From Ignavibacteriales bacterium (GTDB lineage: Bacteria; Bacteroidota; Ignavibacteria; Ignavibacteriales; Ignavibacteriaceae): 64,000 nucleotides of DNA. Shown piece after piece: positions 18,796 to 63,161 of this stretch. The stretch is from assembly GCA_020061465.1 (NCBI GenBank), contig JAGUYG010000006.1:1-64000 (forward strand), read 5' to 3'. Both the position numbers and the translations under genes were made by a program. The notes under the pieces are model-generated. The model was not told the DNA's origin. It did not search any database and saw only the letters and a list, made by a program, of their open reading frames with translations. Numbering within the stretch: position 1 is the stretch's first letter; every line of letters begins with the position of its first letter.

Positions 18796-19167
18796 AATTT
18801 ATTAATCTAAAAATGCTTAATAAAATACAAAATCATTTATTTTTTTACTACTATTAGCTAATGTAAGCAATTTTGTTAAAATTGTGTTAAACTAGAAATT
18901 ATTATATATAAACATTGAACATCCAAATTTAAGTTGATCCGAATTGGCTAATTTATTCTAAAATAACCAATGTACATAAAAGAGGGAATTTATCATTTTA
19001 TGCAAAATTATAGTTTAACTTCTTATGAGAATTCATTTGCAATATAAGTTTATTGCTACTGAAAATCATATTTGTCTGACGAATAACTATTTTTTCAATT
19101 CAGATACTAATCCACCTTATATAGAAATGTGCAATTACTCGGGACAACATTCTTATCGGGTAAAAAA
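18796..19167. other. divergent intergenic region
   Basis: An AT-rich gap between the unknown minus-strand gene and the plus-strand histidine kinase. It must hold promoters for both, but no convincing consensus, RNA gene or repeat is visible. Confidence 0.5.
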
Positions 19168-20262
19168 ATGAAAAATTGTATCACCCGTGCAACCGGCTAC
19201 AAAAATTGCGTATTTAAAAATATGATCGATTCTCATAAGGATATGGTCATTATTTGGGATAAAAACTACAGGTATATTTATGTTAATAAAACATGTGAGG
19301 CTTTTTTTAATTCGCGGGGTTTGTCCTCTAAGAACAGAAAGATTCATGAAGTGTTCCCCCGGCATCCTGAATTGTGTCAAAAATGGGAAAAAAGAATTGA
19401 TAATGTTATAACCTCAGGCAAAGTAGCAAAATATGAAGATAGTGAACTGTTGTTTAACAAAGAGTTTTTCAGCGAAACAATCCTATTTCCAGTGTTTGAT
19501 GATTTAAACAATGTTAATGGGGCACTTTGTTTGTCAGAAGATATTGCTGAGAAAAAGTTTAATGAACAAGCCTTAAAATTCAATGAAAGATTGTCCGAAC
19601 TTGGCAAGATATTGGCCTACTTAGCTCACGAAATAAGAACACCTCTTAATTCGATAGTAATGAATGTTGCTATATTAAAAAATAATCTGACTCTCTCGGA
19701 ATCTGGAATGAAATCATTCGATATAATTCGACAGGAACTCCAAAGACTAACAAATATGATTCGAGAAATACTAAAATTTTCGCATTACGATAGTTCTGAA
19801 CAGTCTTTAATTAGCCTTACCGGGGTGTTAGAGAGTGTTAAGGATTTAATTTTTCCTGTGTTAGCAGCAAAGAACATAGTGCTTAAGATTAATATCCCGG
19901 ATACTTTTATTTTGGGTAATAAAAAAGAAATTCAATCGATTTTCTTTGCTCTTATTGGCAATTCAGCCGATGCTATCAAACAAAATGGATATATAAATAT
20001 CTACGCAAACGTTAACGAACAGTATAAAAAAATAAGCATATTCATTGAGGATTCCGGATCGGGAATTAAGGAACCCGATAAAATTTTTCTTCCGTTTTAT
20101 ACTACTAAAAAGGATGGTACAGGCATAGGACTTCCAACCGTTCTTAAAAAAATGATTGACATGAATTCTACCATAAGATTGGTTACTTCCAATCCTGGAT
20201 GCACCGTTTTCGAACTAATCTTTAATTTGGTTGATGATTATGAAGAAAATACTAATAATTGA
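19168..20262 (+). CDS. PAS-domain sensor histidine kinase
   Basis: A 364-residue soluble kinase. The N-terminal PAS domain (about residues 18-130) starts IDSHKDMVIIWDKNYRYIYV. The dimerisation helix carries the phospho-acceptor His in LAHEIRTPLNS (about residue 153). The ATP-binding domain has the N box GNSADAIKQNG, the G1 box EDSGSGI and the G2 box GTGIGLPTV. No membrane helix is seen, so it senses a cytoplasmic signal. ATG 19168 is chosen; a GTG at 19129 would add 13 residues. It overlaps the following response regulator by 23 bases, so the two form a coupled two-component pair just upstream of the curli genes. Confidence 0.9.
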   Translation: MKNCITRATGYKNCVFKNMIDSHKDMVIIWDKNYRYIYVNKTCEAFFNSRGLSSKNRKIHEVFPRHPELCQKWEKRIDNVITSGKVAKYEDSELLFNKEFFSETILFPVFDDLNNVNGALCLSEDIAEKKFNEQALKFNERLSELGKILAYLAHEIRTPLNSIVMNVAILKNNLTLSESGMKSFDIIRQELQRLTNMIREILKFSHYDSSEQSLISLTGVLESVKDLIFPVLAAKNIVLKINIPDTFILGNKKEIQSIFFALIGNSADAIKQNGYINIYANVNEQYKKISIFIEDSGSGIKEPDKIFLPFYTTKKDGTGIGLPTVLKKMIDMNSTIRLVTSNPGCTVFELIFNLVDDYEENTNN

Positions 20263-21589
20263 CGATGATAAAGCCACTAGTGATACGCTTAATTTATTCT
20301 TCTCAGAACTAAATTATAAAACTATTATTGCAAATGAGGGGGAACAAGGTCTTGAAGCCTTTTACCAAAAGCATCCCGATCTAATTATAAGCGATCTAAA
20401 AATGCCGGTTTTATCCGGCCTGGATATTTTAAAACATGTACATGCAATCGACCCGAATATCCCTGTTATTATTATAACTGCATTTGATGATTTATCTTCT
20501 ACTATCGAAGCCATGCACCTGGGCGCCTACGATTATATAGAAAAACCGCTTGACATCAACAGACTTAAATTCATAGTGCAAAGAGCGTTAAAAACTTCTG
20601 AATTAAGTAAAAGACTTGAGATAGTTGTTTCACAAACCGAGAGGGAATATCACCTTAACAATATTGTGCTGGGTAAATCTCAATTTATGAGGGAAATAAT
20701 AAAAAATGTTGGAAAACTTGCATCAAATAAAGTAAATATTTTAATTGAAGGAGAAAGTGGTACCGGAAAAGAATTAATAAGTAAAATTATACATTATTCG
20801 GGGATAACTAAAAACTGTCCCTTTATAGCAGTGAATTCAGCCGCCATTCCGGAAAACTTACTTGAGAGTGAATTATTTGGACACGTTAAAGGTGCTTTTA
20901 CCGGTGCAATCAGAGATAAGAAAGGTAAATTTGAATTAGCCGGTGGTGGCACAATTTTTTTAGATGAAATTACAGAGATATCAACTCATCTACAAGCCAA
21001 GCTTCTTAGAGTAATTCAGGAAAGAGAGTTTGAAAAAGTTGGCGCTGAATCAAGTATTCAAATGAATGCCAGAATAATTGCTGCTACAAATAAAAATTTA
21101 GAAAAAATGATTAGAGAAGGATTGTTTAGAGAAGATCTATTTTACAGGTTAAGCGTTTTTAAAATATCTGTTCCACCTTTGCGGGAGAGAAAAGAGGATA
21201 TTCCTGATTACGTGGTTTATTTTCTTTCAAAGATAAATAAACAATTACATAAAAATGTAACAAAAATTCCGTATGAGGTGATCGAATATCTACAGGATTA
21301 CGATTGGGTTGGAAATGTACGCGAATTAGAAAATATTTTATTGCAAGCAGTTGTCTTGTCAAAAGGAGAAGTTCTGGAAAAAGAAAATATATTACTGAAG
21401 AAAGACCACATGCAGCTAACTCACTATAATAACGATATAGAACTGAGCCTGGCAGAGATGGAAAAACTACATATCAAAAAAACGCTTGATAAAGTTGGCT
21501 GGGATAAAAACGAAGCAGCGCGTATATTAAAAATTACCAGACAGACCTTATATAACAAGATAAAAAAATATCTTATCCTGCATCCATGA
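20240..21589 (+). CDS. sigma-54-dependent response regulator (NtrC family)
   Basis: A 449-residue activator with a receiver domain at residues 1-120 (acidic DDD at 8-10, phospho-Asp in IISDLKMP near 52). A sigma-54 AAA+ domain follows, with Walker A GESGTGKE near residue 171 and the sigma-54 contact loop GAFTGA near 219. It ends with a Fis-type helix-turn-helix (WDKNEAARILKITRQTLYNKIKKY). Such proteins activate only sigma-54 promoters. The start lies inside the kinase gene. ATG 20240 gives MKKILIIDDD directly. The CheW-like/curli genes begin 240 bases downstream and are its most likely targets. Confidence 0.95.
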   Translation: MKKILIIDDDKATSDTLNLFFSELNYKTIIANEGEQGLEAFYQKHPDLIISDLKMPVLSGLDILKHVHAIDPNIPVIIITAFDDLSSTIEAMHLGAYDYIEKPLDINRLKFIVQRALKTSELSKRLEIVVSQTEREYHLNNIVLGKSQFMREIIKNVGKLASNKVNILIEGESGTGKELISKIIHYSGITKNCPFIAVNSAAIPENLLESELFGHVKGAFTGAIRDKKGKFELAGGGTIFLDEITEISTHLQAKLLRVIQEREFEKVGAESSIQMNARIIAATNKNLEKMIREGLFREDLFYRLSVFKISVPPLRERKEDIPDYVVYFLSKINKQLHKNVTKIPYEVIEYLQDYDWVGNVRELENILLQAVVLSKGEVLEKENILLKKDHMQLTHYNNDIELSLAEMEKLHIKKTLDKVGWDKNEAARILKITRQTLYNKIKKYLILHP

Positions 21590-21829: not shown

Positions 21830-22354
21830 ATGAATTTTCCCGCGGAAAACTATGGAAATTTTAAAGGAATATTGGCTTTCAAATTAGGAGAAATGGAGTT
21901 TTGCTGCGATCTTCAATCAATAATTAACATACTAAAAACTGATGAAATAAGGCGTGGTCAGCAATTCGTTTTCAAAAACAGCAAAACGGTTATATATGAC
22001 AAAACAAAATTTCGTCTAATTAATCTTAATCGAATTTTGCATGCGGCAGAAGCTCCCTTTGAAGAACTTACGAGACTTATTCTTCTGGAAGCCTATTCTA
22101 AAAAAATAGCGTTTTTCGTAGACCAAATACTCGAGATCTATGCCGTTGAAAATATATTACTAGATAAATCAATTGAACTAAAACCGGTAGTAAATATTAA
22201 ATATGGTAAATACTGCCTGGTGTACCATCAAAAGACTATGATCTGGCCTGATTATGAAAAAATTTGTAAAGATATAGACCGGCTTCCCGGTGTAGATTGG
22301 CAAATAATTAAACTAAAATATATTATTCAAGGGAATGTTAAAAAATATGATTAG
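21830..22354 (+). CDS. CheW-like adaptor protein
   Basis: A 174-residue single-domain protein resembling CheW: GILAFKLGEMEFCCDLQSIINIL near the start, then KFRLINLNRIL (the IPVIDL-like strand) and RLILLEAYSKKIAFFVDQILEIYAV (the core strand-turn segment with the usual V-D). CheW folds couple receptors to CheA kinases. No CheA, receptor or other chemotaxis gene is nearby. It overlaps the CsgE gene by 20 bases, so it is part of the curli operon. It might connect surface sensing to amyloid export, which is speculative. Confidence 0.75.
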   Translation: MNFPAENYGNFKGILAFKLGEMEFCCDLQSIINILKTDEIRRGQQFVFKNSKTVIYDKTKFRLINLNRILHAAEAPFEELTRLILLEAYSKKIAFFVDQILEIYAVENILLDKSIELKPVVNIKYGKYCLVYHQKTMIWPDYEKICKDIDRLPGVDWQIIKLKYIIQGNVKKYD

Positions 22355-23213
22355 AACTATCGTATTGATGCTGCTGCTTCATTCTGTTATAAATGCACAA
22401 GTAAATCTTGAGGAATATAAACACTTTTATCAGATGGTAACAGTTCTTGCTGAAAGCATTAATAATAAATTGGCTTCAAAAAATATTTTGCAAGAATCGT
22501 TAAATAAACTAAGTGAATCGGATTTAAGTACGCTTCCTGAAATTCAAAGTGCATTAAAAGGATTACAAAAAACTTTAGATCGATGGGAAGATAATCAACA
22601 ATCGACTTCAAACAACGAACCTAAAAAAACTCCAGTTACGAATTTGAATTCAAGCTCAAAGGTGAGAAAAACTGAAATGCCCGACACACTCTATACAGAT
22701 GAGGGTTTTATCATTAAAGATACTACTGCAAAAAATAACAAACTTACTCTAATCGACTCTATTCAAAAGATCATTATTAAACCAGATTTATTGCAAGATT
22801 CATCGGAAACGGATTCCATCAGACAAAAATTTGAACAAGAACAAAGATCGAGCCTGTTCACACACTCCCTTAAGGATGCAGAGCTTGAAATAGATAATTT
22901 AATTCTAAATGAGTCCATAACTAAAATCGGTAAGGATTTCTACGATATATTTTATAAAAATTGGGTGCCGCCGGAAAAAGTAGAAAACGTTACAATTATT
23001 ATTGGAGAAAAACCTCTTCCAACAATAGGAACAAGAGTAACTATAAGGGTTAACGATTATTATGTATTTCAGAGAGTACTGCAGCCAAGATATGAAGTAA
23101 TAGAGGCAGCAGCTCTGTCTGCTGTTAATACTGTTTTTGATTTTCTTAATAATTATGAACAAATCCAACAAAGCCTTCAAGGAGAGGATATGTTGGGAAC
23201 CGGTATTTATTAA
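22335..23213 (+). CDS. csgE: CsgE-type curli assembly factor, long form
   Basis: The 292-residue product has a signal peptide (ending VINAQ), a coiled-coil/low-complexity region (residues 25-175, Ser/Lys/Asp rich), and a C-terminal domain matching CsgE. That domain shows LILNESITKIGKDFYDIFY, ENVTIIIGEKPLPTIGTRVTI and VFQRVLQPRY. In E. coli CsgE caps the CsgG pore and gates subunit export. The E. coli protein is about 130 residues, so this form carries an extra 150-residue N-terminal region. An inner ATG at 22347 has better spacing to AAGGGA and is an alternative start. CsgF follows 16 bases on. Confidence 0.85.
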   Translation: MLKNMIRTIVLMLLLHSVINAQVNLEEYKHFYQMVTVLAESINNKLASKNILQESLNKLSESDLSTLPEIQSALKGLQKTLDRWEDNQQSTSNNEPKKTPVTNLNSSSKVRKTEMPDTLYTDEGFIIKDTTAKNNKLTLIDSIQKIIIKPDLLQDSSETDSIRQKFEQEQRSSLFTHSLKDAELEIDNLILNESITKIGKDFYDIFYKNWVPPEKVENVTIIIGEKPLPTIGTRVTIRVNDYYVFQRVLQPRYEVIEAAALSAVNTVFDFLNNYEQIQQSLQGEDMLGTGIY

Positions 23214-23229
23214 CCGAAAGGATAGTAAT

Positions 23230-23649
23230 ATGAAAATTATCAAAATTTTTATTTTTTCTGTTTTCATTTCATTATCTCCAAAGCTGATCGCCCAGGAACT
23301 CACCTATACACCTATAAATCCATCTTTTGGAGGCAGCCCGTTTAATGCCTCATGGTTAATGGCTTCTGCACAAGCACAGGACAAATTAACGGGTGATTTT
23401 AAGATGGTTAGCACCTTCAGCGCACGCGATGCTTTGGCTGATTTTGAGGAATCCATAAAAAGACAAATTCTGAACCAATTTTCCCGCCAGATAATTACCA
23501 ATATGTTTGGTGAAACAGAATTAGCTGCAGGGGAATATCAATTAGGAGATTTTTTCATCAGTATTTCTAAAACATTGGATGGAATTAACATTCAAATAAT
23601 TGATAATTCAACTGGAAGCGAATCAAACATTGTTATACCATATTTGTAA
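23230..23649 (+). CDS. csgF: CsgF-type curli assembly factor
   Basis: The 139-residue protein has a signal peptide (ending KLIAQ) followed by ELTYTPINPSFGGSPFNASWLMASAQAQ, the hallmark N-terminus by which CsgF inserts into the CsgG pore. Length equals that of E. coli CsgF (138). The C-terminal part (DFFISISKTLDGINIQIIDNSTGS) is also typical. In known systems CsgF is surface exposed and couples secretion to fibre nucleation. It lies between csgE and csgG, 16 bases from each neighbour. Confidence 0.93.
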   Translation: MKIIKIFIFSVFISLSPKLIAQELTYTPINPSFGGSPFNASWLMASAQAQDKLTGDFKMVSTFSARDALADFEESIKRQILNQFSRQIITNMFGETELAAGEYQLGDFFISISKTLDGINIQIIDNSTGSESNIVIPYL

Positions 23650-23665
23650 AACTGAAAGAACAGGT

Positions 23666-25045
23666 ATGATAAAATATATTATAGTAATTTTTTCGTCTAT
23701 CTTAATAGTTTTTACGGGATGCTATCCAAACTACTATTCGACTAAAACCACACCTGCTACACTTGGTCCGCGAACTGCCACTTACAAAGAGCTTAGCTCA
23801 CTTCCAAGACCGCAGGAAAAAATAGTTGCAGCCGTTTATAAATTTAGAGACCAGAGCGGTCAGTATAAAGCATCTCAGACAGGTACTAGCTGGTCAACGG
23901 CAGTAACGCAGGGCGCCACATCAATTTTAATTAAAGCTTTAGAAGAATCGGGTTGGTTTATACCTATTGAGCGTGAGGCATTGTCGGAGCTGTTAAATGA
24001 AAGAAAAATTATTCGCTCCAGCAGAGCAAATTTTGAAGCAGAAGGGACGGAGAACCTTCCGGCATTGCCTCCAATGCTGTATGCCGGAGTAATTTTAGAG
24101 GGGGGAATAATTTCTTACGAAACAAATATTGTAACAGGCGGAGCCGGTCTCCGGTATTTCAGTGCAGGGGCTTCCACTCAATACCGCGAAGACCAGGTTA
24201 CTGTCTATTTACGTGCTATTTCCACTTCAAATGGTCGCATTCTTAAAAGCGTGTACACAACAAAAAAAATACTTTCACAATTAGTGGATGTTGGTCTGTT
24301 TAGGTATGTAGAATTCAAAAGATTGCTGGAAGTTGAGACCGGTTTCAGCTATAACGAACCGCCGCAATTCGCAGTAACTGCAGCTATCGAAAAAGCCGTC
24401 CAAAGCTTAATCATCGAAGGAATTTTCAGCGGTATGTGGCTCCCTGCTAATGAAAGCGATTTAAACTCTGAAGCTATAAATAAATATAAAGAAGAAAAGG
24501 CACAGCAAGAGAGTCTCGACGTTTATGGAGATTTAATAAGTGATGCAAGGAATGCCAAAGGGATTGGTTTTACAATAGGAGGACAAAGTTATAGTGGAGA
24601 ATTTGATAATTCATTAGCAAAATACGGCAGTGAATTATTTATGAAGTATGATTTAAAACCCGGACTATTTTTAGCACCCGGCGTGGGCTTTGGTGAACTT
24701 GCAGTGGATAAACTTTTTAGAATTCTGCTTCTTAGCTTGAACCTGAATTTTCAGTATCATCTATTCCCGGAGAATTCCCTATCTCCGTTTTTTAAATTTG
24801 GTATAGGCTTAGATAAAAGATCCCCTATTAAACCTATGGTCAACAAACATTTCAGTATGGATGATAAGTGGCTTTTCTCCATTAACACAGGAGCCGGAAT
24901 AGAATATATGCTTTTTAACAGAATAGGATTCAATCTCATATTCACTTATAAATATTTCTTAACGGATGAACTGGATAATTTTAAAGCGGGCAAGTATAAT
25001 GATTATTATTTAGGCGCCGGAGCGGGATTAACATTTTATTTCTAA
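23666..25045 (+). CDS. csgG: CsgG-type curli secretion pore with C-terminal barrel-like extension
   Basis: A 459-residue lipoprotein (lipobox IVFTGC). The CsgG core covers about residues 20-285: VAAVYKFRDQSGQYK, TQGATSILIKALEESGWFIPIERE, LLNERKIIRSSRA, ILEGGIISYETN and a C-terminal GMWLP. In E. coli CsgG forms a nonameric outer-membrane pore. Here a further 170 residues follow, with alternating strands (GIGFTIGGQSYSGEF, LLLSLNLNFQYHLF, GAGIEYMLFNRIGFNLIFTYKYF) ending in LTFYF, which look like an outer-membrane beta-barrel. The longer frame to 23600 lacks a lipobox-compatible start. An intergenic inverted repeat follows the stop. Confidence 0.92.
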   Translation: MIKYIIVIFSSILIVFTGCYPNYYSTKTTPATLGPRTATYKELSSLPRPQEKIVAAVYKFRDQSGQYKASQTGTSWSTAVTQGATSILIKALEESGWFIPIEREALSELLNERKIIRSSRANFEAEGTENLPALPPMLYAGVILEGGIISYETNIVTGGAGLRYFSAGASTQYREDQVTVYLRAISTSNGRILKSVYTTKKILSQLVDVGLFRYVEFKRLLEVETGFSYNEPPQFAVTAAIEKAVQSLIIEGIFSGMWLPANESDLNSEAINKYKEEKAQQESLDVYGDLISDARNAKGIGFTIGGQSYSGEFDNSLAKYGSELFMKYDLKPGLFLAPGVGFGELAVDKLFRILLLSLNLNFQYHLFPENSLSPFFKFGIGLDKRSPIKPMVNKHFSMDDKWLFSINTGAGIEYMLFNRIGFNLIFTYKYFLTDELDNFKAGKYNDYYLGAGAGLTFYF

Positions 25046-25115: not shown

Positions 25116-25239
25116 CTCTAAGAAAATTAAGATTATAGAGCTTTGCGGTAAAATACAGTAATAACTAACATTATTAATTAACAAAAATTATGAAAGGAGG
25201 TTTAAAGGAAGATGAGATTAAAAAAACAGGAAAAAAGAA

Positions 25240-25400
25240 GGCGATTTATTTTTCCCGGTTATTAACAGGCGGCGCCAGAGGGGTTGGTTCTTAACATAAA
25301 TTAAGAACCGGACCAAGGCACACTCTGAGCGCCACCTAAAACCGTATACGAAACTAATATATAAGCAGTATTAGTTGCAAGGGTTTTAGGAAAAATCGCC
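25240..25400 (+). ncRNA. candidate structured leader RNA upstream of the major curlin gene
   Basis: Five helices nest without major conflict. P1 is 25240-25247 with 25393-25400 (GGCGATTT/AAATCGCC). P2 is 25271-25280 with 25323-25333 (10 pairs, one bulged A). P2a is 25286-25294 with 25301-25309 (GGTTCTTAA/TTAAGAACC). P3 is 25335-25343 with 25382-25390 (CCTAAAACC/GGTTTTAGG). P3a is 25352-25359 with 25369-25376 (AACTAATA/TATTAGTT). Together they form a three-way junction ending 56 bases before the curlin ATG. I cannot match it to a known riboswitch class. It could also be a folded MITE with P1 as terminal repeat. Confidence 0.55.
25317..25330 (+). promoter_or_regulatory. weak sigma-54-like GG-N10-GC site
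   Basis: AGGCAC (25316-25321) with GG at 25317-25318 is followed after exactly ten bases by GC (25329-25330). The -12 context is GAGC instead of TTGC. It lies about 125 bases before the major curlin start. It also falls inside the folded leader candidate, so only one of the two readings may be real. Confidence 0.25.
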
Positions 25401-25455
25401 ATGTGCATTCTATGCTTAATAACAACTATTTTCTAATTAACATGGAGATCTTAAA

Positions 25456-26808
25456 ATGAAAAAGCTTTTTGCTTTAGTAGCAATTGTTCTTATGTGCAGC
25501 TTTGCGCTTGCGCAGAATAATACGGCTACAGCTAATCAGAGTGGCGGCGGAAATAATTCTTCAGTAGTTACACAGAGCAGTGGTGCTACTGTAGATATCA
25601 TTCAGCAAGGAACAGTCCAAAACAGTGCAACCACAACTCAAAGTGGTGCTACTGGTACTAATAATGAATTGTACATTAAGCAAATCGGTTTTACAAATTC
25701 AGCTATTAACCAGGTTGAAGCAATACAAACCGGTGATGCAAACCGTGCGGGTGTCGAGCAGACCGCTGCAGTAAACAACACTATTGTAGGTCCCTCACCT
25801 GGTATTATACAGAACGGCATTGGAAACCAGTTGTTACATGCAGTAGGTGATGCATGGGGTACCGCTGTTGCATTTGATCCTCTCAATCCACTTGTACAAA
25901 CTTCTTCCGCTGGTTCGAATAGTCTTTTTGCAAGACAGGAGGGAGATTATAATAAATTTGGACTATACCAGAATGCAACTGGCAACAATACAGCTAATGC
26001 CGAACAATGGGCTGGAAATAATGAATTAGATGTATATCAGGGTGGTCAATCACGTCCCAGTGCCTCAACTTCCAACAGCCTCTCCGCTATGCAGACGGGT
26101 GGTGATAACGTTGCAAAATTATCACAAGGAAAAAGCGTGAATTCTGCTACAATAAATCAGTTAGGTGGTAATAACCTATTGGGCGGTGCAGGTACAACCG
26201 GCGTTACTCCTGGTAATGCATATCAATATGGAGCTACAAGTGCTACTCTCACTTTGAATCAGGCTGGTGATGACAAGGCAGGAATTTACCAACGAGCCAG
26301 TGGTACTGCTAGCGCCACTGTATCCCAGGATGGTGATAACCTTCTTGCTGTTCGACAGGATACTGACTATATACGTAATGGTAGTATTAACGCAACCCAG
26401 AGTGGGCACACTAATATCGCACTTCTTGATCAAGACCCAAAATCTGGAAATGATGCTACCGCAAACATTACACAATCTGGTGGAGGTAACATACTTCGTC
26501 TTGCAAACGCAGATGGTACTATTCATGGAACAAATCGCGCACGGCAGCATGCTGGTTCCGGAGCAGGTAAATATGTAGAACTTGACCTTAATTCAACTGG
26601 AGGTTTAAACCAAGTTGGTCTATATCAGAGTGGGACAGGATATGCTGATGCTGATATCGTTCAGTCGCTCGGTGGCAACACTTTGGGTAGTTATCAGTCA
26701 ACCACAGCTGGCTTCAATTTTCTGGATGTTGACCAGCTGTCCGGTGGTGCAACTGCTACAGTAATTCAAACCGGTGCTGGCAACAACACCGCTACTGTAA
26801 CACAATAG
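25456..26808 (+). CDS. major curlin-repeat amyloid subunit
   Basis: A 450-residue secreted protein with signal peptide (ending FALAQ). The mature part consists almost wholly of curlin-type repeats of roughly 20-25 residues with the Q-x-G-x-x-N-x-A pattern (for example IKQIGFTNSAINQVEAIQTGDANRAGVEQ), more than a dozen in all, and no Cys. It ends with the repeat VIQTGAGNNTATVTQ. Such proteins exit through CsgG unfolded and polymerise into surface fibres. It is three times longer than E. coli CsgA. A strong ribosome site (ATGGAGATC) precedes the start. A 16-bp hairpin follows the gene, consistent with separate high-level expression. Confidence 0.88.
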   Translation: MKKLFALVAIVLMCSFALAQNNTATANQSGGGNNSSVVTQSSGATVDIIQQGTVQNSATTTQSGATGTNNELYIKQIGFTNSAINQVEAIQTGDANRAGVEQTAAVNNTIVGPSPGIIQNGIGNQLLHAVGDAWGTAVAFDPLNPLVQTSSAGSNSLFARQEGDYNKFGLYQNATGNNTANAEQWAGNNELDVYQGGQSRPSASTSNSLSAMQTGGDNVAKLSQGKSVNSATINQLGGNNLLGGAGTTGVTPGNAYQYGATSATLTLNQAGDDKAGIYQRASGTASATVSQDGDNLLAVRQDTDYIRNGSINATQSGHTNIALLDQDPKSGNDATANITQSGGGNILRLANADGTIHGTNRARQHAGSGAGKYVELDLNSTGGLNQVGLYQSGTGYADADIVQSLGGNTLGSYQSTTAGFNFLDVDQLSGGATATVIQTGAGNNTATVTQ

Positions 26809-26851: not shown

Positions 26852-26889
26852 CTGAACAACTTATCCGGATTAACGGATAAGTTGTTCAG
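26852..26889 (+). terminator. strong hairpin after the major curlin gene
   Basis: CTGAACAACTTATCCG (26852-26867) and CGGATAAGTTGTTCAG (26874-26889) form a perfect 16-pair stem with a six-base loop. An A-rich, then T-rich stretch follows (AAATAAAAAATTTTT). It can act as a terminator/attenuator or 3' stabiliser between the major subunit and the lesser curlin genes. Confidence 0.75.
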
Positions 26890-29240: not shown

Positions 29241-30761
29241 ATGTCAAAGAAAATAATAAAACTGCTTTTCACCGTTTCTATCTGTTCAGTTATAATAATT
29301 ATTTCATCTTGTAAGGAAAGCGTAATAGAACCAACCTTCTATGGATCAATTGAAGGAACTGTAATGGATGCCGAGACAAGCACTCCAATCAGCGAGGCTT
29401 CAGTTTCCACAAGTCCGCCTACCAATGCTCTAATAACTGATTCAGAGGGAAAATATTTTATAGAAGATATTCCGGTAGGTGAATATACAATAACCATTAA
29501 AAAAACCGGTTACATAAAAAGCACTGTAAGCGTATCTGTAAGAGAAGGCGCGGTTGCAAAAGCATCGACATTTTTGGAAAAGGAAAAAAAGACAAATCTT
29601 CCTCCCTTAAAGCCGGATAATCCTGTTCCTGAAAATGGATCCACAAATCAGCCTCTATCAATAACATTAATGTGGCAGGCTTCCGATCCGGATAAAGACG
29701 ATTCCCTTTTCTTTGATGTTTACTTATATGCTTCAAATTCAATAGAACAAAACTTAATAGCATCAAATCACACAGATACATTTTTAGTTGTCCAGAACTT
29801 GAGTTTTAATACTAGCTATTTCTGGCAGGTAATTGCAAAGGATAATTCGGGGGCAGAAACCAGCGGCTATATCTGGAATTTTAGCACAATTGAAATGCCG
29901 AAATTTCCAATAGTATTCTCATCAAAACGAGAAGGTAACTACGAGATTTATGCTTCGGACACACAAAATTCATATAATATTAAACTAACAGATGACCCTG
30001 CAAGAGATTGGAGTCCACGTTTTAATCCTAAAACAAATCAAATAGCGTTTACTTCTAACCGCGATGGTCAAACACACATATACAGAATTGATACGGACGG
30101 ATCTAATTTATTTAAAATTACCGGTGTACCGGTCGCTGGATTTCATAATAATGGAGCAGGATTTTGCTGGTCAAATGACGGCAGTAAAATTCTCTATAGT
30201 AATTACGATAAGCTTTACACAATAGATTTAAATGGAGGAAATCTAACTCAAATTGCTACAGCACCTTCTGGAAGACATTTTAGAGAGAGTAGTTGGTCCC
30301 CTTTAGGCAATATGATCGCGGTATTAACAATAGGACAAAATATTTTTGATTCGGAAATTTATATAATGAATACGGATGGAACAGGTATGGCTTTATTGGT
30401 TGATAACTTACCGGGTATTATTGAAAGCCCGGTATTTTCTCATGACGGGAAATCTATTTTGTACACAAGAGATATTTCCGGTTTGGAAGCACAGGAAGGC
30501 AGGCAGCTTGATTCACATATCTTCTTGTTAAATATAGATACTAAAGTTCAAACAGATTTATCTCTTGAGAATAAGCCTGATGGAACTAATGATTTGTGGC
30601 CTAAATTTTCGCCCGATGGCTCTAAAGTAATTTTTACGAATGTGAATAATACCGGCTTAGGTTTAAAAGATGTTTATACTATTACAGTAAACGTAGATAT
30701 AAATAATTATCGAAGCAGAACTAAAATTATATCCGATGCAGAAATGGCAGATTGGAGATAA
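29241..30761 (+). CDS. lipoprotein with carboxypeptidase-like, fibronectin-like and beta-propeller domains
   Basis: A 506-residue lipoprotein (lipobox IIISSC, Cys near residue 24). Domains in order: a carboxypeptidase regulatory-like repeat (GSIEGTVMDAETSTPISEASV...IPVGEYTITIKKTGY); a fibronectin-III-like module (LKPDNPVPENGSTNQPLSITLMWQASDPDKDD); and a TolB/PD40-type propeller with repeated blades (FSSKREGNYEIYASD, AFTSNRDGQTHIYRIDTDG, YSNYDKLYTIDLNGG). It follows the last curlin gene by 26 bases and probably ends that operon. It may anchor or recognise fibres at the surface; function is inferred. Confidence 0.82.
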   Translation: MSKKIIKLLFTVSICSVIIIISSCKESVIEPTFYGSIEGTVMDAETSTPISEASVSTSPPTNALITDSEGKYFIEDIPVGEYTITIKKTGYIKSTVSVSVREGAVAKASTFLEKEKKTNLPPLKPDNPVPENGSTNQPLSITLMWQASDPDKDDSLFFDVYLYASNSIEQNLIASNHTDTFLVVQNLSFNTSYFWQVIAKDNSGAETSGYIWNFSTIEMPKFPIVFSSKREGNYEIYASDTQNSYNIKLTDDPARDWSPRFNPKTNQIAFTSNRDGQTHIYRIDTDGSNLFKITGVPVAGFHNNGAGFCWSNDGSKILYSNYDKLYTIDLNGGNLTQIATAPSGRHFRESSWSPLGNMIAVLTIGQNIFDSEIYIMNTDGTGMALLVDNLPGIIESPVFSHDGKSILYTRDISGLEAQEGRQLDSHIFLLNIDTKVQTDLSLENKPDGTNDLWPKFSPDGSKVIFTNVNNTGLGLKDVYTITVNVDINNYRSRTKIISDAEMADWR

Positions 30762-31180: not shown

Positions 31181-31376
31181 TAACTTACTCAAGTTGACCG
31201 TTTATAATGGGAAACCGTTCCATAGGATCCTTCGGATAAAACGGTTTATTATTTGAGCTTTTATTAAGCAACCCACGACTTAAGTCGTGGGCTGCTTAAA
31301 ACAAAACCTTGAGAATGAAACCGTTTAAACGGTTTTTGACTCTCAAAAATCTCAAGGGGTCAACTTTAGTAACTTA
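31181..31376 (+). mobile_element. 196-bp MITE with 19-bp terminal inverted repeats, copy A
   Basis: The left end TAACTTACTCAAGTTGACC (31181-31199) and the complement of the right end (31358-31376) differ at two of 19 positions. Inside are three palindromes. The first is AAACCGTT...AACGGTTT holding the 20-bp micro-insert. The centre is CCCACGACTTAAGTCGTGGG. The last is a plain AAACCGTTTAAACGGTTT. There is no coding capacity. A same-length copy lies inverted at 39247-39442. Confidence 0.8.
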
Positions 31377-31424
31377 AATATGTCCTTCAAAATATTCGGG
31401 AAAAGTGACTTATTTTTTTAAGTT

Positions 31425-39189: not shown

Positions 39190-39246
39190 GTTTAAAAGAC
39201 TTGAGTTTAATTAAAGAATCAACATAGAGAAAAAATCTATGTATTT

Positions 39247-39442
39247 TAGTTTACTCCAGTTGACCCCTTGAGTTATTTACGAATCATAAACCGTTAAAAC
39301 GGTTTCACTCTCAAGGTTTTGTTTTCAGCAGCCCACGACTTAAGTCGTGGGTTGCTTAAGAAAAGCTCAAACAATAAACCGTTTTATCAGAAGAATCCTA
39401 TGGAACGGTTTCCATTTTAAACTGTCAACTTGAGTTAGTTTA
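39247..39442 (-). mobile_element. 196-bp MITE with terminal inverted repeats, copy B
   Basis: Same length and structure as the 31181 element but inverted. The ends are TAGTTTACTCCAGTTGACC (39247-39265) and the complement at 39424-39442. The plain AAACCGTTAAAACGGTTT palindrome is now on the left, CCCACGACTTAAGTCGTGGG at the centre, and the palindrome with a decayed micro-insert on the right. It is placed between rpoZ and coaBC. Confidence 0.8.
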
Positions 39443-58989: not shown

Positions 58990-59150
58990 ACCGTTCCATG
59001 GATTCTTCGGATAAAACGGTTTTTGTTTTGGGAATTTATTTTTATTCTCCATAATTTAAGCTATGTGCTGCTTTTTCCCCTTAACTATTTTACTATTGTA
59101 TCAAATTTGGCAGCCCACAGTTTCAACTGTGGGTAAGTATTTCGAAAATA
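58990..59150. repeat. REP-type hairpin cluster left of the transposase
   Basis: AACCGTTCCATGGATTCTTC with GGATAAAACGGTT (58990-59022) is the AAACCGTT palindrome holding a decayed micro-insert. Next come TTTAAGCTATGTGCTGC and then GCAGCCCACAGTTTCAACTG with TGGG. The same hairpin pair recurs twice right of the transposase. Confidence 0.7.
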
Positions 59151-59157
59151 AAAACAG

Positions 59158-59308
59158 CAAGTTGACCGTTTATAATGGGAAACCGTTTAAACGGTTTATT
59201 ATTTGAGCTTTTCTTAAGCAACCCACGACTTAAGTCGTGGGCTGCTGAAAACAAAACCTTGAGAATGAAACCGTTTTATCCGAAGGATCCCTATGGAACG
59301 GTTTTTTT
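59158..59308 (+). mobile_element. truncated copy C of the 196-bp MITE
   Basis: CAAGTTGACC begins at 59158 (terminal repeat incomplete), then the plain AAACCGTTTAAACGGTTT palindrome, CCCACGACTTAAGTCGTGGG, and the second palindrome, which here holds the micro-insert (59277-59299). The right terminal repeat is missing. Compared with copy A the micro-insert is in the opposite palindrome. Confidence 0.75.
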
Positions 59309-59383
59309 ACACAGCCGCTCCAACCACAGAAAAAGTGAATAAATAAATTTAAGAACCGTTTATCATAAGGAGTGTTATGAAAA

Positions 59384-59824
59384 TCATGTTATAATTTTTA
59401 GTCCGTATTTTTTTATGAACAAATCAATTTCTTCTTTATACGTAATCTTTTTATGGTGCTCTTTCTGATTAGCTATATATTTTTCAACTGCTTTTACCAT
59501 TGACTCACTCACTGAAAAAGCGCCGTAGCCTGTCTGCCATGTAAACTTATAATTGATAAAATCGGATAGGTTAATCCAATGCGAAGATTCTCCCTTCATC
59601 TGTTTGAATATATCTTTCAAAGCGAAGTTCGGCGATAATAGAAATAAGACATGGATATGGTCTTCTGTTCCATTGATTATCCTTACTTTGCAGTCAAGGT
59701 CTTCTTCTAAATTTGCCTTTATGTGCGCGTGTAATTGCGGTTCAAATGTTCTTTTGATTAATGAGTACTTGTCTTTCGTACCGAAGATTCCATGTATCCA
59801 TACTTTCAATAGTGAGTGTGACAT
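59384..59824 (-). CDS. IS200/IS605-type single-Tyr transposase (TnpA/RAYT-like)
   Basis: A 146-residue Y1 transposase. The metal-binding His-x-His motif is in TEDHIHVLFLL (about residue 57), and the catalytic Tyr is in MVKAVEKYIANQKEHH (about residue 114). The N-terminal WIHGIFGTKDKY is family typical. These enzymes act on hairpin ends as single strands. No TnpB gene is present. Hairpin-forming palindromes crowd both sides, and the gene's 5' end is duplicated just upstream. It is the most likely mobiliser of the AAACCGTT/REP families here. Confidence 0.92.
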   Translation of the reverse strand: MSHSLLKVWIHGIFGTKDKYSLIKRTFEPQLHAHIKANLEEDLDCKVRIINGTEDHIHVLFLLSPNFALKDIFKQMKGESSHWINLSDFINYKFTWQTGYGAFSVSESMVKAVEKYIANQKEHHKKITYKEEIDLFIKKYGLKIIT

Positions 59825-60322
59825 ATTACCTCCTTTAAACCGTTGAAACGGTTTTTGTTTTTACGATTTGTTTTTTATTCCCCATAGCTGAAGCTATGGG
59901 CTGCTTTTTCCCTCCGCAATTTAAACCTTTGTATCAAATTTGGCAGCCCACAGTTTCAACTGTGGGTAAATATATCGAAAATAAAAACATTGAAACCGTT
60001 TTATCCGAAGGATCCTATGGAACGGTTTCTACTTGCCTTTGATTAATGAGTACTTGTCTTTCGTACCGAAGATTCCATGTATCCATACTTTCAATAATGA
60101 ATGTGACATATTGCCTCCTTTAAACCGTTGAAATTGTTTTTGTTTTTGCGATTTGTTTTTTATTCCCCATAGCTGAAGCTATGGGCTGCTTTTTCTCTCC
60201 ACAATTTAAATCTTTGTACCAAATTTGGCAGCCCACAGTTTTAACTGTGGGTAAATATATCGAAAATAAAAACATTGAAACCGTTTTATCCGAAGGATCC
60301 TATGGAACGGTTTTTTCACACA
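59753..60322. repeat. 285-bp tandem duplication carrying the transposase 5' end
   Basis: TTTGATTAATGAGTACTTGT starts at 59753 and again at 60038, an exact 285-base offset. The whole block repeats with few changes: the first 24 codons of the transposase, CCCATAGCTGAAGCTATGGG, the CCCACAGTTT hairpin, and the AAACCGTT palindrome with the micro-insert (60001-60022 and 60286-60307). The second transposase start is an orphan fragment. Confidence 0.88.
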
Positions 60323-60332
60323 GCCTCTGAAG

Positions 60333-63161
60333 CTATGGGCTGCTTTTTCCCTCCACAATTTTGATTTCTTCTTCCGTTAAGCCGTAAAGCTGGTAAACAA
60401 GCTGGTCTATTTCTTTATCGAGTCTTTCGCATTTACGTTTTAAGTAGTTTTTGTCGCTTTCGGTTTTGGCTTGTTGGAGTTGTTTTTTCGTGGTAAGCAT
60501 TTGATCGACTAGGTTAATTACCTTTTTATATGAATCACTTTCTATTTCGTTATTAAGATCAATATTGGGAATAGGTAGTTGTTCATAATGAAATATTCGT
60601 GCTTTGATAAATGCCCCTGTGGAGTTATCAAAACATAATTGTTGCATATAAAATTGTGAGGCATTTGAATTTATTACACCTAATACAAACTTAATATCAG
60701 CCGTCGAATTATCTTTTAAAAATAAACTGTAAACAGAACTAAGAAGATAATATTGTTCATTATCATAAGTTGCGGTTATTCTTTTACCAGTTTCTCTTAT
60801 TAATATTTTTTCTTTTACTTCGTAAATATAAGGGTCACGTGGACATGCTAAATGAGAGCCATAATCAACATAACGGCCAGAGTATTTTAGCAAATACCTT
60901 TCCATTTCACTTCCACCAATTACAGGCTTATAATTTTTCTTTCTCTTTTTATTTGAGATATATTTTTTATCATCACCTGTTTTTATTGCTTGCCTAATAT
61001 TTGCAATTTGTTTTAAGAGGATACCATTTGATTTCATTCTATTTAAAATCGATGCATACTTACCGAAGAATCGAATTTCAAAAGCATAATTTTCTATTTT
61101 GTAAAATTCATTTTGATTAACTTCAAAGCTTTCTACTGAGTCCTTTGCAACCTGTTTAATCGTAGTCATTGGCTTATTTAACTCGCTGTCTAAAATTAAT
61201 ACCATCGAGTGGACAACAGCCTGCTTAAATACTTTGAACTTATAATTTGATATTTCCGCAATGTGAGTTTTTTCCAATAATAATTTTCTTAGCTTTCTAT
61301 CAGTTAAGTTTGATAATAAGGTATTAGGAATTATAAACCCTAATCTTCTAAATCCAAGCGATATGCTTTTTTCAATAAATAGTGTATAAATATCTAACTT
61401 AAATTCTGGTGTAGAATATTTACTTATAAAATATTCGCTTGCTTGATTATCTGCATCAATTCTAAAGTACGGCGGATTTCCTACAATCGCATCAAAGCCA
61501 CCGGACTTCATTACTTCGGGGAATACGTTTTCGAAATCCATTGGCTTTAGCTTTTTCTCTTCTTCAAAATCGAAGAGACTATTTTCAAGAATGTCGGTAC
61601 CGATAAGCGAGTTGCCGCAGATAATGTTTTTATTTAGGTCGGGTAAAAGCTGCTCTTTAAACATTACCCACGTATCGTTTGCCGTTGCGGTTGTTTCATC
61701 TTCAAGCAGCTTTAAGTAAAGTGAAAGCTGCGTTACTTTAACAGCCTGCTGGTCGAGATCGACTCCGTAAATATTGTTCAACAAAATATTTTGCTTTTGC
61801 TTTAACGAAAGCCGGTAAGCGCCTTCATACAAAATGCAGCCGTCCTTTTTTGCCTGTGCAGTATGCTGCTGATACCATTGTTTGTGGTAATCGATAAGCC
61901 GTTCATAAACGGTGATAAGAAAAGAACCGCTTCCGCAGGCAATATCCGCAAAACGCATCTTTGCAATTTCTTTGGGAGTTTTTCCTTCAATAAGCTTTAC
62001 CACAGTGTTATCGACAATGTAATTGACAATGTACTGCGGTGTGTAATAAACTCCGCCTGCTTTACGGACTTCGGGCTTTTCTTCAATGGTTACGCGCTTA
62101 TCCGTTGCATTAACAACCTTGCCTAAAAACCTTTCGTAAATTGAGCCTAAAATGTGAATTGGTATTGCATCAAAGTTATACGGAGAATTTTCGTGCGACA
62201 ATTCTTCGCAGATAGAAGAGAATGTTTTATCATCAGGCTCAACTATGTTTCGGGAGTCAATATTGCTTTTCTTAAATACTACCCCGTTATACTTTGCATC
62301 CAGCGTGCGGGATGCCGTTATAAAATCTTCCCATGCGTTTCTGCGTTTGCCAAAATCGCTTAGATAATGATGCGGCTCGATCAGTTTATCTTCAAGAAAT
62401 CTGATAAAAACTAATCTGTCAATTGTACGTTGTGTAGCCTCTGTCAATTCTTCGCTTGAAAGATGCGTGTTAATTTTTTTAAACGATTTTGCAAGCCTGG
62501 TTCTTATCTCATCAAGCTCTTCGAGAAATGCTTCATCTATGTTTTGATATCTTTCTGTTATACGAGCTTTCTTTTTCCCTTTGGGTTTTGGAAGCGCCCC
62601 GGCAAATTTTTCTATTGAGTTATCGGCAGCCGCTTCCCGGGAAAGCAGGTAATAAATTTCTTTCAGCTTATCTTCATCTGCATAGTCTGTATAGTGGAAG
62701 CTTTTTATTTTATAGCTGAGAATATCCTGAATGTTTGGTCTGAAGCGGCAGTCTAAAATAATGAACTCCTCAAAATCGGTAAGCACGGCAACGGGAGTAT
62801 TTGCATTCCATCCGTAACGGACTGTCTGGAAAAAGTAATCTTTGTTCTCAAGGTCGTGCGAAGGTTTCTTAGCTTCAACAAAAAACTTTACGTCGCGGAA
62901 ATTCGGTGCAAGATAAAAAGTATAATCGGCGCGCTTCTGCGCTTTTGCAACAAGCACGGGCTTTTCAACTCTTACTTCCTGTTCGTAAGGATTCTTTTGT
63001 GTTTCGTGTCTTACATCCCAGCCAAGAGCAATAAAAAATTTATTTATGAAATCATTCCGTACATCCGCTTCGGAGTAAGAGGGATTTAGATATTGTTTCT
63101 CGTTCGCTTTAAAGTCCTTTATTAGAGAGGATATTAAGCGGAAAGCTTCTTGAAAACCCAT
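60333..63161 (-). CDS. Eco57I-like fused restriction-modification enzyme (type IIG)
   Basis: A 942-residue protein starting MGFQEAFRLISSLI (GAGGAG upstream); 60 extra in-frame residues before it lack support. An N-terminal nuclease domain (about residues 10-130) has the PD-(D/E)xK pattern in KRADYTFYLAP and FFVEAKKP. The methyltransferase core has motif I FADIACGSGSFLI and motif IV IVGNPPYFR. The C-terminal part is a TaqI-like specificity region (ISNKKRKKNYKPVIGGSEMERYLLKY). The last nine codons and stop (VEGKSSP-stop) are repeat-derived sequence. No separate methylase or specificity gene is adjacent. Confidence 0.93.
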   Translation of the reverse strand: MGFQEAFRLISSLIKDFKANEKQYLNPSYSEADVRNDFINKFFIALGWDVRHETQKNPYEQEVRVEKPVLVAKAQKRADYTFYLAPNFRDVKFFVEAKKPSHDLENKDYFFQTVRYGWNANTPVAVLTDFEEFIILDCRFRPNIQDILSYKIKSFHYTDYADEDKLKEIYYLLSREAAADNSIEKFAGALPKPKGKKKARITERYQNIDEAFLEELDEIRTRLAKSFKKINTHLSSEELTEATQRTIDRLVFIRFLEDKLIEPHHYLSDFGKRRNAWEDFITASRTLDAKYNGVVFKKSNIDSRNIVEPDDKTFSSICEELSHENSPYNFDAIPIHILGSIYERFLGKVVNATDKRVTIEEKPEVRKAGGVYYTPQYIVNYIVDNTVVKLIEGKTPKEIAKMRFADIACGSGSFLITVYERLIDYHKQWYQQHTAQAKKDGCILYEGAYRLSLKQKQNILLNNIYGVDLDQQAVKVTQLSLYLKLLEDETTATANDTWVMFKEQLLPDLNKNIICGNSLIGTDILENSLFDFEEEKKLKPMDFENVFPEVMKSGGFDAIVGNPPYFRIDADNQASEYFISKYSTPEFKLDIYTLFIEKSISLGFRRLGFIIPNTLLSNLTDRKLRKLLLEKTHIAEISNYKFKVFKQAVVHSMVLILDSELNKPMTTIKQVAKDSVESFEVNQNEFYKIENYAFEIRFFGKYASILNRMKSNGILLKQIANIRQAIKTGDDKKYISNKKRKKNYKPVIGGSEMERYLLKYSGRYVDYGSHLACPRDPYIYEVKEKILIRETGKRITATYDNEQYYLLSSVYSLFLKDNSTADIKFVLGVINSNASQFYMQQLCFDNSTGAFIKARIFHYEQLPIPNIDLNNEIESDSYKKVINLVDQMLTTKKQLQQAKTESDKNYLKRKCERLDKEIDQLVYQLYGLTEEEIKIVEGKSSP

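Follow-up and report, generated by a model that had tools for sequence, protein, structure and literature searches.

What does a strongly folded leader RNA do just ahead of an amyloid gene? The window, by which we mean the whole stretch of 64,000 nucleotides analysed here, contains a csgEFG locus (profile matches PF03783 at 1.6e-64, PF10614 at 2.9e-35 and PF10627 at 2.3e-21) and a gene for a major curlin-repeat protein, and the element in question sits between the end of csgG, at 25045, and the start of the curlin gene, at 25456. An initial annotation, made by eye, had described it as a candidate multi-helix leader RNA with a three-way junction, and had named a folded MITE as its main alternative. 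The features of the locus and of the predicted fold are the following:

22335-23213, csgE, followed by 23227-23649, csgF, both 5' of csgG (profile matches)
23672-25045, + strand, csgG, upstream neighbour of the leader (profile match)
25240-25247, + strand, 5' strand of P1, GGCGATTT, eight pairs with 25393-25400 (RNAfold; matched against permuted P1 helices in 15 leaders, p 5e-5)
25268-25336, + strand, P2/P2a arm, with a conserved core GGCGGCGCCAGAG ... CTCTGAGCGCCACC, an asymmetric 3' bulge and an apical hairpin (fold and covariation)
25271-25280 with 25323-25333, + strand, P2, ten pairs with a bulged A at 25328, plus two outer G-C pairs (RNAfold)
25285-25310, + strand, P2a, apical hairpin of ten pairs (25285-25294 with 25301-25310) and a 6-nt loop (RNAfold)
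25335-25390, + strand, P3/P3a arm, 9 + 9 pairs (RNAfold; two-sided change from G-C to A-U in P3 of relatives)
25335-25343 with 25382-25390, + strand, P3, nine pairs (RNAfold)
25352-25360 with 25368-25376, + strand, P3a, nine pairs (RNAfold)
25393-25400, + strand, 3' strand of P1, AAATCGCC (RNAfold)
25456-26808, + strand, major curlin-repeat protein of 450 amino acids (PF07012, E 9e-10)

The three-way junction of P1, P2/P2a and P3/P3a is borne out by RNAfold. The minimum free energy of 25240-25400 on the + strand is -58.9 kcal/mol, against -34.9 +/- 3.8 for shuffled sequences (z -6.29), and none of 200 shuffles folds as low. The pair counts made by eye hold for P2 (ten and one bulge) and P3 (nine); P2a and P3a, then given nine and eight pairs, are each one pair longer. 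The element does lie just before the amyloid ATG, at a distance of 55 bases rather than 56. The - strand of the element folds equally well (z -6.83), so that the strand cannot be told from the energy of the fold by itself; in all homologues, the element has the same orientation with respect to the curlin gene.

The surroundings have some features of their own. CsgG (23672-25042) carries an additional C-terminal outer-membrane beta-barrel-like domain (PF13505). A PAS-like sensor kinase and an NtrC-type response regulator (19129-21589) lie just 5' of csgE, and a response regulator resembling the latter is likewise upstream in locus L006. A lipoprotein-like CarboxypepD_reg/PD40 protein is encoded at 29241-30758, and genes like it adjoin the csg loci L006, L048, L049 and several of flavobacterial type. 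The edge of the window holds a fragment of 16S rRNA on the minus strand (1-384).

Nucleotide similarity searches gave no homologue of the element, either in 59 relatives (three weak unrelated matches) or in 294 genomes of the class (chance-level matches). Consequently, csgG was taken as a landmark and the sequence from there to the following curlin gene was read: homologues were found through this synteny and through covariance models. The same three-way junction is present in 24 leaders from 22 genomes, some belonging to the class of the window and the others to a single distant family of its phylum, labeled f43. In their common plan, a P2 of the form GGCAGCG...GAG / CUC..AACGCCRCC, with conserved mismatches, bulges asymmetrically on its 3' side and carries a long apical hairpin; a P3 arm follows, and P1 closes the junction. 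A P2a-type apical hairpin is predicted in seven of eight cores, each folded singly. In the class, the element is carried by L008, L029, L030, L031, L033, L035, L045 and L046, and also by L009 and L044, both cut by contig ends. In f43, the plan is found in L064, L065, L067, L075-L077 and L094, the last having three curlin paralogues with one copy of the element before each. The homologues stand before a curlin gene and after csgG or csgF, with the curlin ATG more than 400 nt past the element in L031 and L045, a distance that speaks against the translational switch considered below. Since the gene that precedes the leader in L075-L077 is csgF-like, not csgG, the element is to be assigned to the curlin gene rather than to the csgG 3' end.

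Searches that ignore protein context lead to the same genes. From nine P2 cores a model, R2, was built; run on 92 f43 genomes, it yields ten matches in eight genomes at E <= 0.1, all just 5' of curlins: four are at new loci, L099-L102, each directly before a curlin ORF, and the others are known curlin leaders. Model R1 finds curlin leaders only in 391 genomes of the class; in 12 whole genomes searched with looser filters, all matches with E < 5 are curlin leaders, one of them matched antisense too, and the next matches come at E 6-7. Among significant matches, the leader is thus fixed 5' of one gene class, curlin, in the same orientation. Elsewhere in the phylum, the element is missing from many curlin leaders: L050, L052, L078-L082, L084, L086, L087, L090 and L091, the 45-nt gap after csgG in L032, and one Bacteroidetes MAG obtained from a curlin-protein look-up. 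Such absences reflect the sensitivity of the models, because R1 misses those in f43 and the window gets a poor score from R2. Locus L034 looks related, but its core fold is unconvincing (z -0.43), and it was left out of the count.

The initial annotation had looked to homologous leaders for covariation, and it is found there. For P2, compared over 17 stems of ten pairs, 81% of the cells pair and seven of the ten pairs show two-sided change; the covariation score is 0.317, against 0.191 +/- 0.021 for shuffled stems, a value that no shuffle out of 500 reaches, and slid stems score at most 0.18. In an alignment of seven f43 leaders (g237), pairing over P1-P2-P2a-P3 is 86.5%, against at most 53% when slid, with two-sided changes in P3 (G-C to A-U) and in P2, and mostly one-sided variation in P1. 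The sequence of P1 is wholly different between the two lineages. Per-leader tests of long-range duplexes are uninformative for this stem, and a permutation across leaders was used instead: in 15 leaders, matched halves pair better than permuted ones, with p 5e-5, a value that, like our other permutation p values, is somewhat optimistic because some leaders in the sets are kin.

No match to the window element or to nine other loci is reported at gathering scores by Rfam 15 (4227 families), and a permissive E-value threshold returns chance-level matches only; the early statement that the element fits no known riboswitch class therefore stands as far as Rfam reaches. Full-text searches of open-access literature turned up no such curlin leader; a 2010 structured-RNA survey does not mention curli, and a large 2017 survey may contain one beyond the Rfam test. 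With covariation, no Rfam match and no second copy in the genome, the description of a structured, riboswitch-like curlin leader is upheld. That a conserved structured RNA family exists at curlin genes is near certain, and this family is undescribed in Rfam and in the open-access full texts searched.

How could such an RNA act on the curlin gene? Three further features are needed here:

25192-25200, + strand, GAAAGGAGG, a perfect anti-SD complement, STAB-SD-like or SD mimic, with no second exact copy in the 64 kb
25395-25404, + strand, candidate anti-SD strand ATCGCCATGT (also given as AUCGCCAUGU), overlapping the 3' strand of P1 (complementarity)
25440-25449, + strand, SD region of the curlin gene, ACATGGAGAT (also given as ACAUGGAGAU), with GGAG at 25444-25447

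The last two pair at nine of ten positions, in a duplex of -11.1 kcal/mol (shuffle p 0.01); in the cross-leader control alone, the pairing of the window is not significant (p about 0.19). Several other leaders have a P1 3' strand, or bases just 3' of it, complementary to the curlin SD region: GGAGUAA, both P1 5' strand and SD, with UUACUCC in L094a, ACAUAGGGGU with GCUCCUAUGU in L076, ACCUGG with CCAGGU in L029, and AACAGGA with UCCUGUU in L067. Over 14 leaders, matched SD/anti-SD strands exceed permuted ones, with p 0.002 for perfect helices and 0.00025 for duplexes. In about a third of the leaders (L030, L046, L033, L035, L064, L102, and L101, which has no recognisable SD), the pairing is weak or absent, and for this reason the switch that we infer may not be universal. 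When the window leader is forced to close P1 (ON) or to cover the SD (OFF), the two folds come to -73.4 and -72.0 kcal/mol, 1.4 apart; the unconstrained minimum, at -75.3 kcal/mol, is a third fold, neither ON nor OFF.

With moderate confidence, we take the element to be a conserved leader RNA that regulates in cis and serves curlin genes alone, most likely as a translational ON switch. Pairing statistics lead us to infer that the 3' strand of P1 doubles as anti-SD, and the family probably acts as a translational switch. A signal, which might be a metabolite, a protein or the status of the ribosome, would stabilise the junction; the closed P1 would hold the anti-SD strand, leaving the curlin SD free and translation on. 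With P1 open, that strand would pair with the SD and turn curlin translation off. Ligand sensing or translation control is here a working hypothesis, and the evidence for an expression platform, read from sequence, is moderate. The likeness to translational riboswitches with SD-sequestering platforms lies in the conserved multi-helix junction, in the strict tie to one pathway, and in a P1 closing stem that would compete with an anti-SD:SD helix close to the start codon; unlike those, the curlin-leader core matches no Rfam family at gathering scores and occurs only before curlins.

The motif upstream of the junction allows other readings. Class-level leaders have AAGGAGG or a close form, often GAAAGGAGG, 44-90 nt 5' of P2: AAGGAGG, AGGAGG or AAAGGAG is present in nine of the ten scanned, and L035 has AGGAG only, near P2. 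Two copies of the motif, or of a close form, are present in L044 (2862-3022), L045 (2808-2966) and L009 (2874-3055). Leaders of f43 have a shorter GGAG on the same side, whose partner in P1 is CUCC. Each of the two motifs might act as an SD mimic, competing for the anti-SD. Our guess is that the GGAG of f43, SD-like and 5' of P2, would pair with the anti-SD, and that GAAAGGAGG in the class would bind the 30S subunit and protect the mRNA.

We take GAAAGGAGG to be the STAB-SD sequence of the cry3A mRNA of Bacillus thuringiensis. There, binding of the 30S subunit blocks a 5' exonuclease and so protects the mRNA (PMC5371835). This function on record suggests an alternative that we consider unlikely: the RNA would be an mRNA stabiliser and not a switch, with GAAAGGAGG as STAB-SD and the three-way junction as a constitutive barrier, so that a processed curlin mRNA would stay more plentiful than that of csgEFG. 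The motif, a single exact copy in the window, is kept in class-level leaders that have no conserved start codon and no conserved ORF after it, as in the cry3A leader. A strong 16-pair hairpin stands directly 3' of the major curlin gene (26852-26889), and could be a terminator or protector of a monocistronic curlin mRNA. However, f43 leaders are without a strong purine motif, having GGAG inside P1 only, and a barrier needs no conserved core with specific mismatches. STAB-SD also differs from the curlin leader in having no large junction.

Improbable, too, is that the partner of the RNA is a protein, such as a dedicated repressor or a ribosomal protein, and not a small molecule, so that curlin translation would be under autogenous or export-coupled control. 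Control of one gene class fits feedback by a pathway product, and the CsgD regulator is generally missing from the curli systems of Bacteroidetes (PMC3521004). Nevertheless, the analysis turned up no candidate protein, and a conserved three-way junction with mismatch-rich internal loops is equally typical of small-molecule aptamers.

In other bacteria, c-di-GMP governs curli. Glycine/c-di-GMP tandem riboswitches precede csgG genes there (PMC9481103), and GGDEF proteins, one or more per genome, are encoded in 10 of the 12 class-level genomes that were tested. That the element is a new class of c-di-GMP riboswitch, linking amyloid output to the biofilm signal, is still very unlikely: no Rfam riboswitch matches, and none of the 11 element-bearing f43 genomes has a GGDEF match (E <= 1e-10), which makes c-di-GMP probably not the common ligand. 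The glycine/c-di-GMP-I tandems (PMC9481103) also control curli genes from a 5' leader RNA, but they sit before csgG and the present element before curlin subunits; neither of their Rfam families matches it. We can go further only tentatively, and with somewhat more doubt than belief, in suggesting a new riboswitch class in two distant lineages, whose sole regulon would be the amyloid subunit, whose signal would not be c-di-GMP, and which would stand in for CsgD.

Equally far-fetched as a c-di-GMP sensor is a peptide attenuator, in which a short leader ORF (ATG at 25212 in the window, MRLKKQEKRRRFIFPGY) would steer RNA folding: an ATG does follow the SD-like GAAAGGAGG in the window, L008, L033 and L009, but none follows it in L029, L031 and L044, and the peptides share no common sequence. 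A folded MITE, or another repeat inserted in the leader, is rejected in spite of a terminal 8-bp inverted repeat and of other repeat elements in the window, since many dispersed copies would be expected and 25240-25400 has one full match in its own 4.2 Mb genome, the same single site that a covariance-model search returns there, with no target-site duplication seen and the same position kept, with covariation, in distant genomes. Elements bounded by AAACGG/CCGTTT, with internal inverted repeats and up to 98% identical, lie at 31210-31378, 39245-39413 and 59000-60361; some are in tandem at a spacing of 285 nt, and they have a MITE-like look, unlike the leader.

The translational switch that we favour has to be placed among the known controls of curli. 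A survey of curli operons found the systems of Bacteroidetes to be without csgC and, one exception aside, without csgD (PMC3521004); therefore no regulator is known for them. In E. coli, the 5' UTR of csgD mRNA is structured and is the target of trans-acting sRNAs (PMC3695526). In both cases a structured 5' UTR would set curli output, but that of csgD acts on a transcription factor; the leader described here is carried by the subunit gene itself, and CsgD is generally missing from the curli systems of its phylum. The leader is short and easy to transcribe, and the RNA could control the amount of amyloid protein that a cell makes. Its ligand or binding partner could reveal which signal sets the production of amyloid and biofilm. 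If this reading is true, a conserved RNA before the curlins of two lineages would be an RNA-level answer to the control of amyloid in this phylum.
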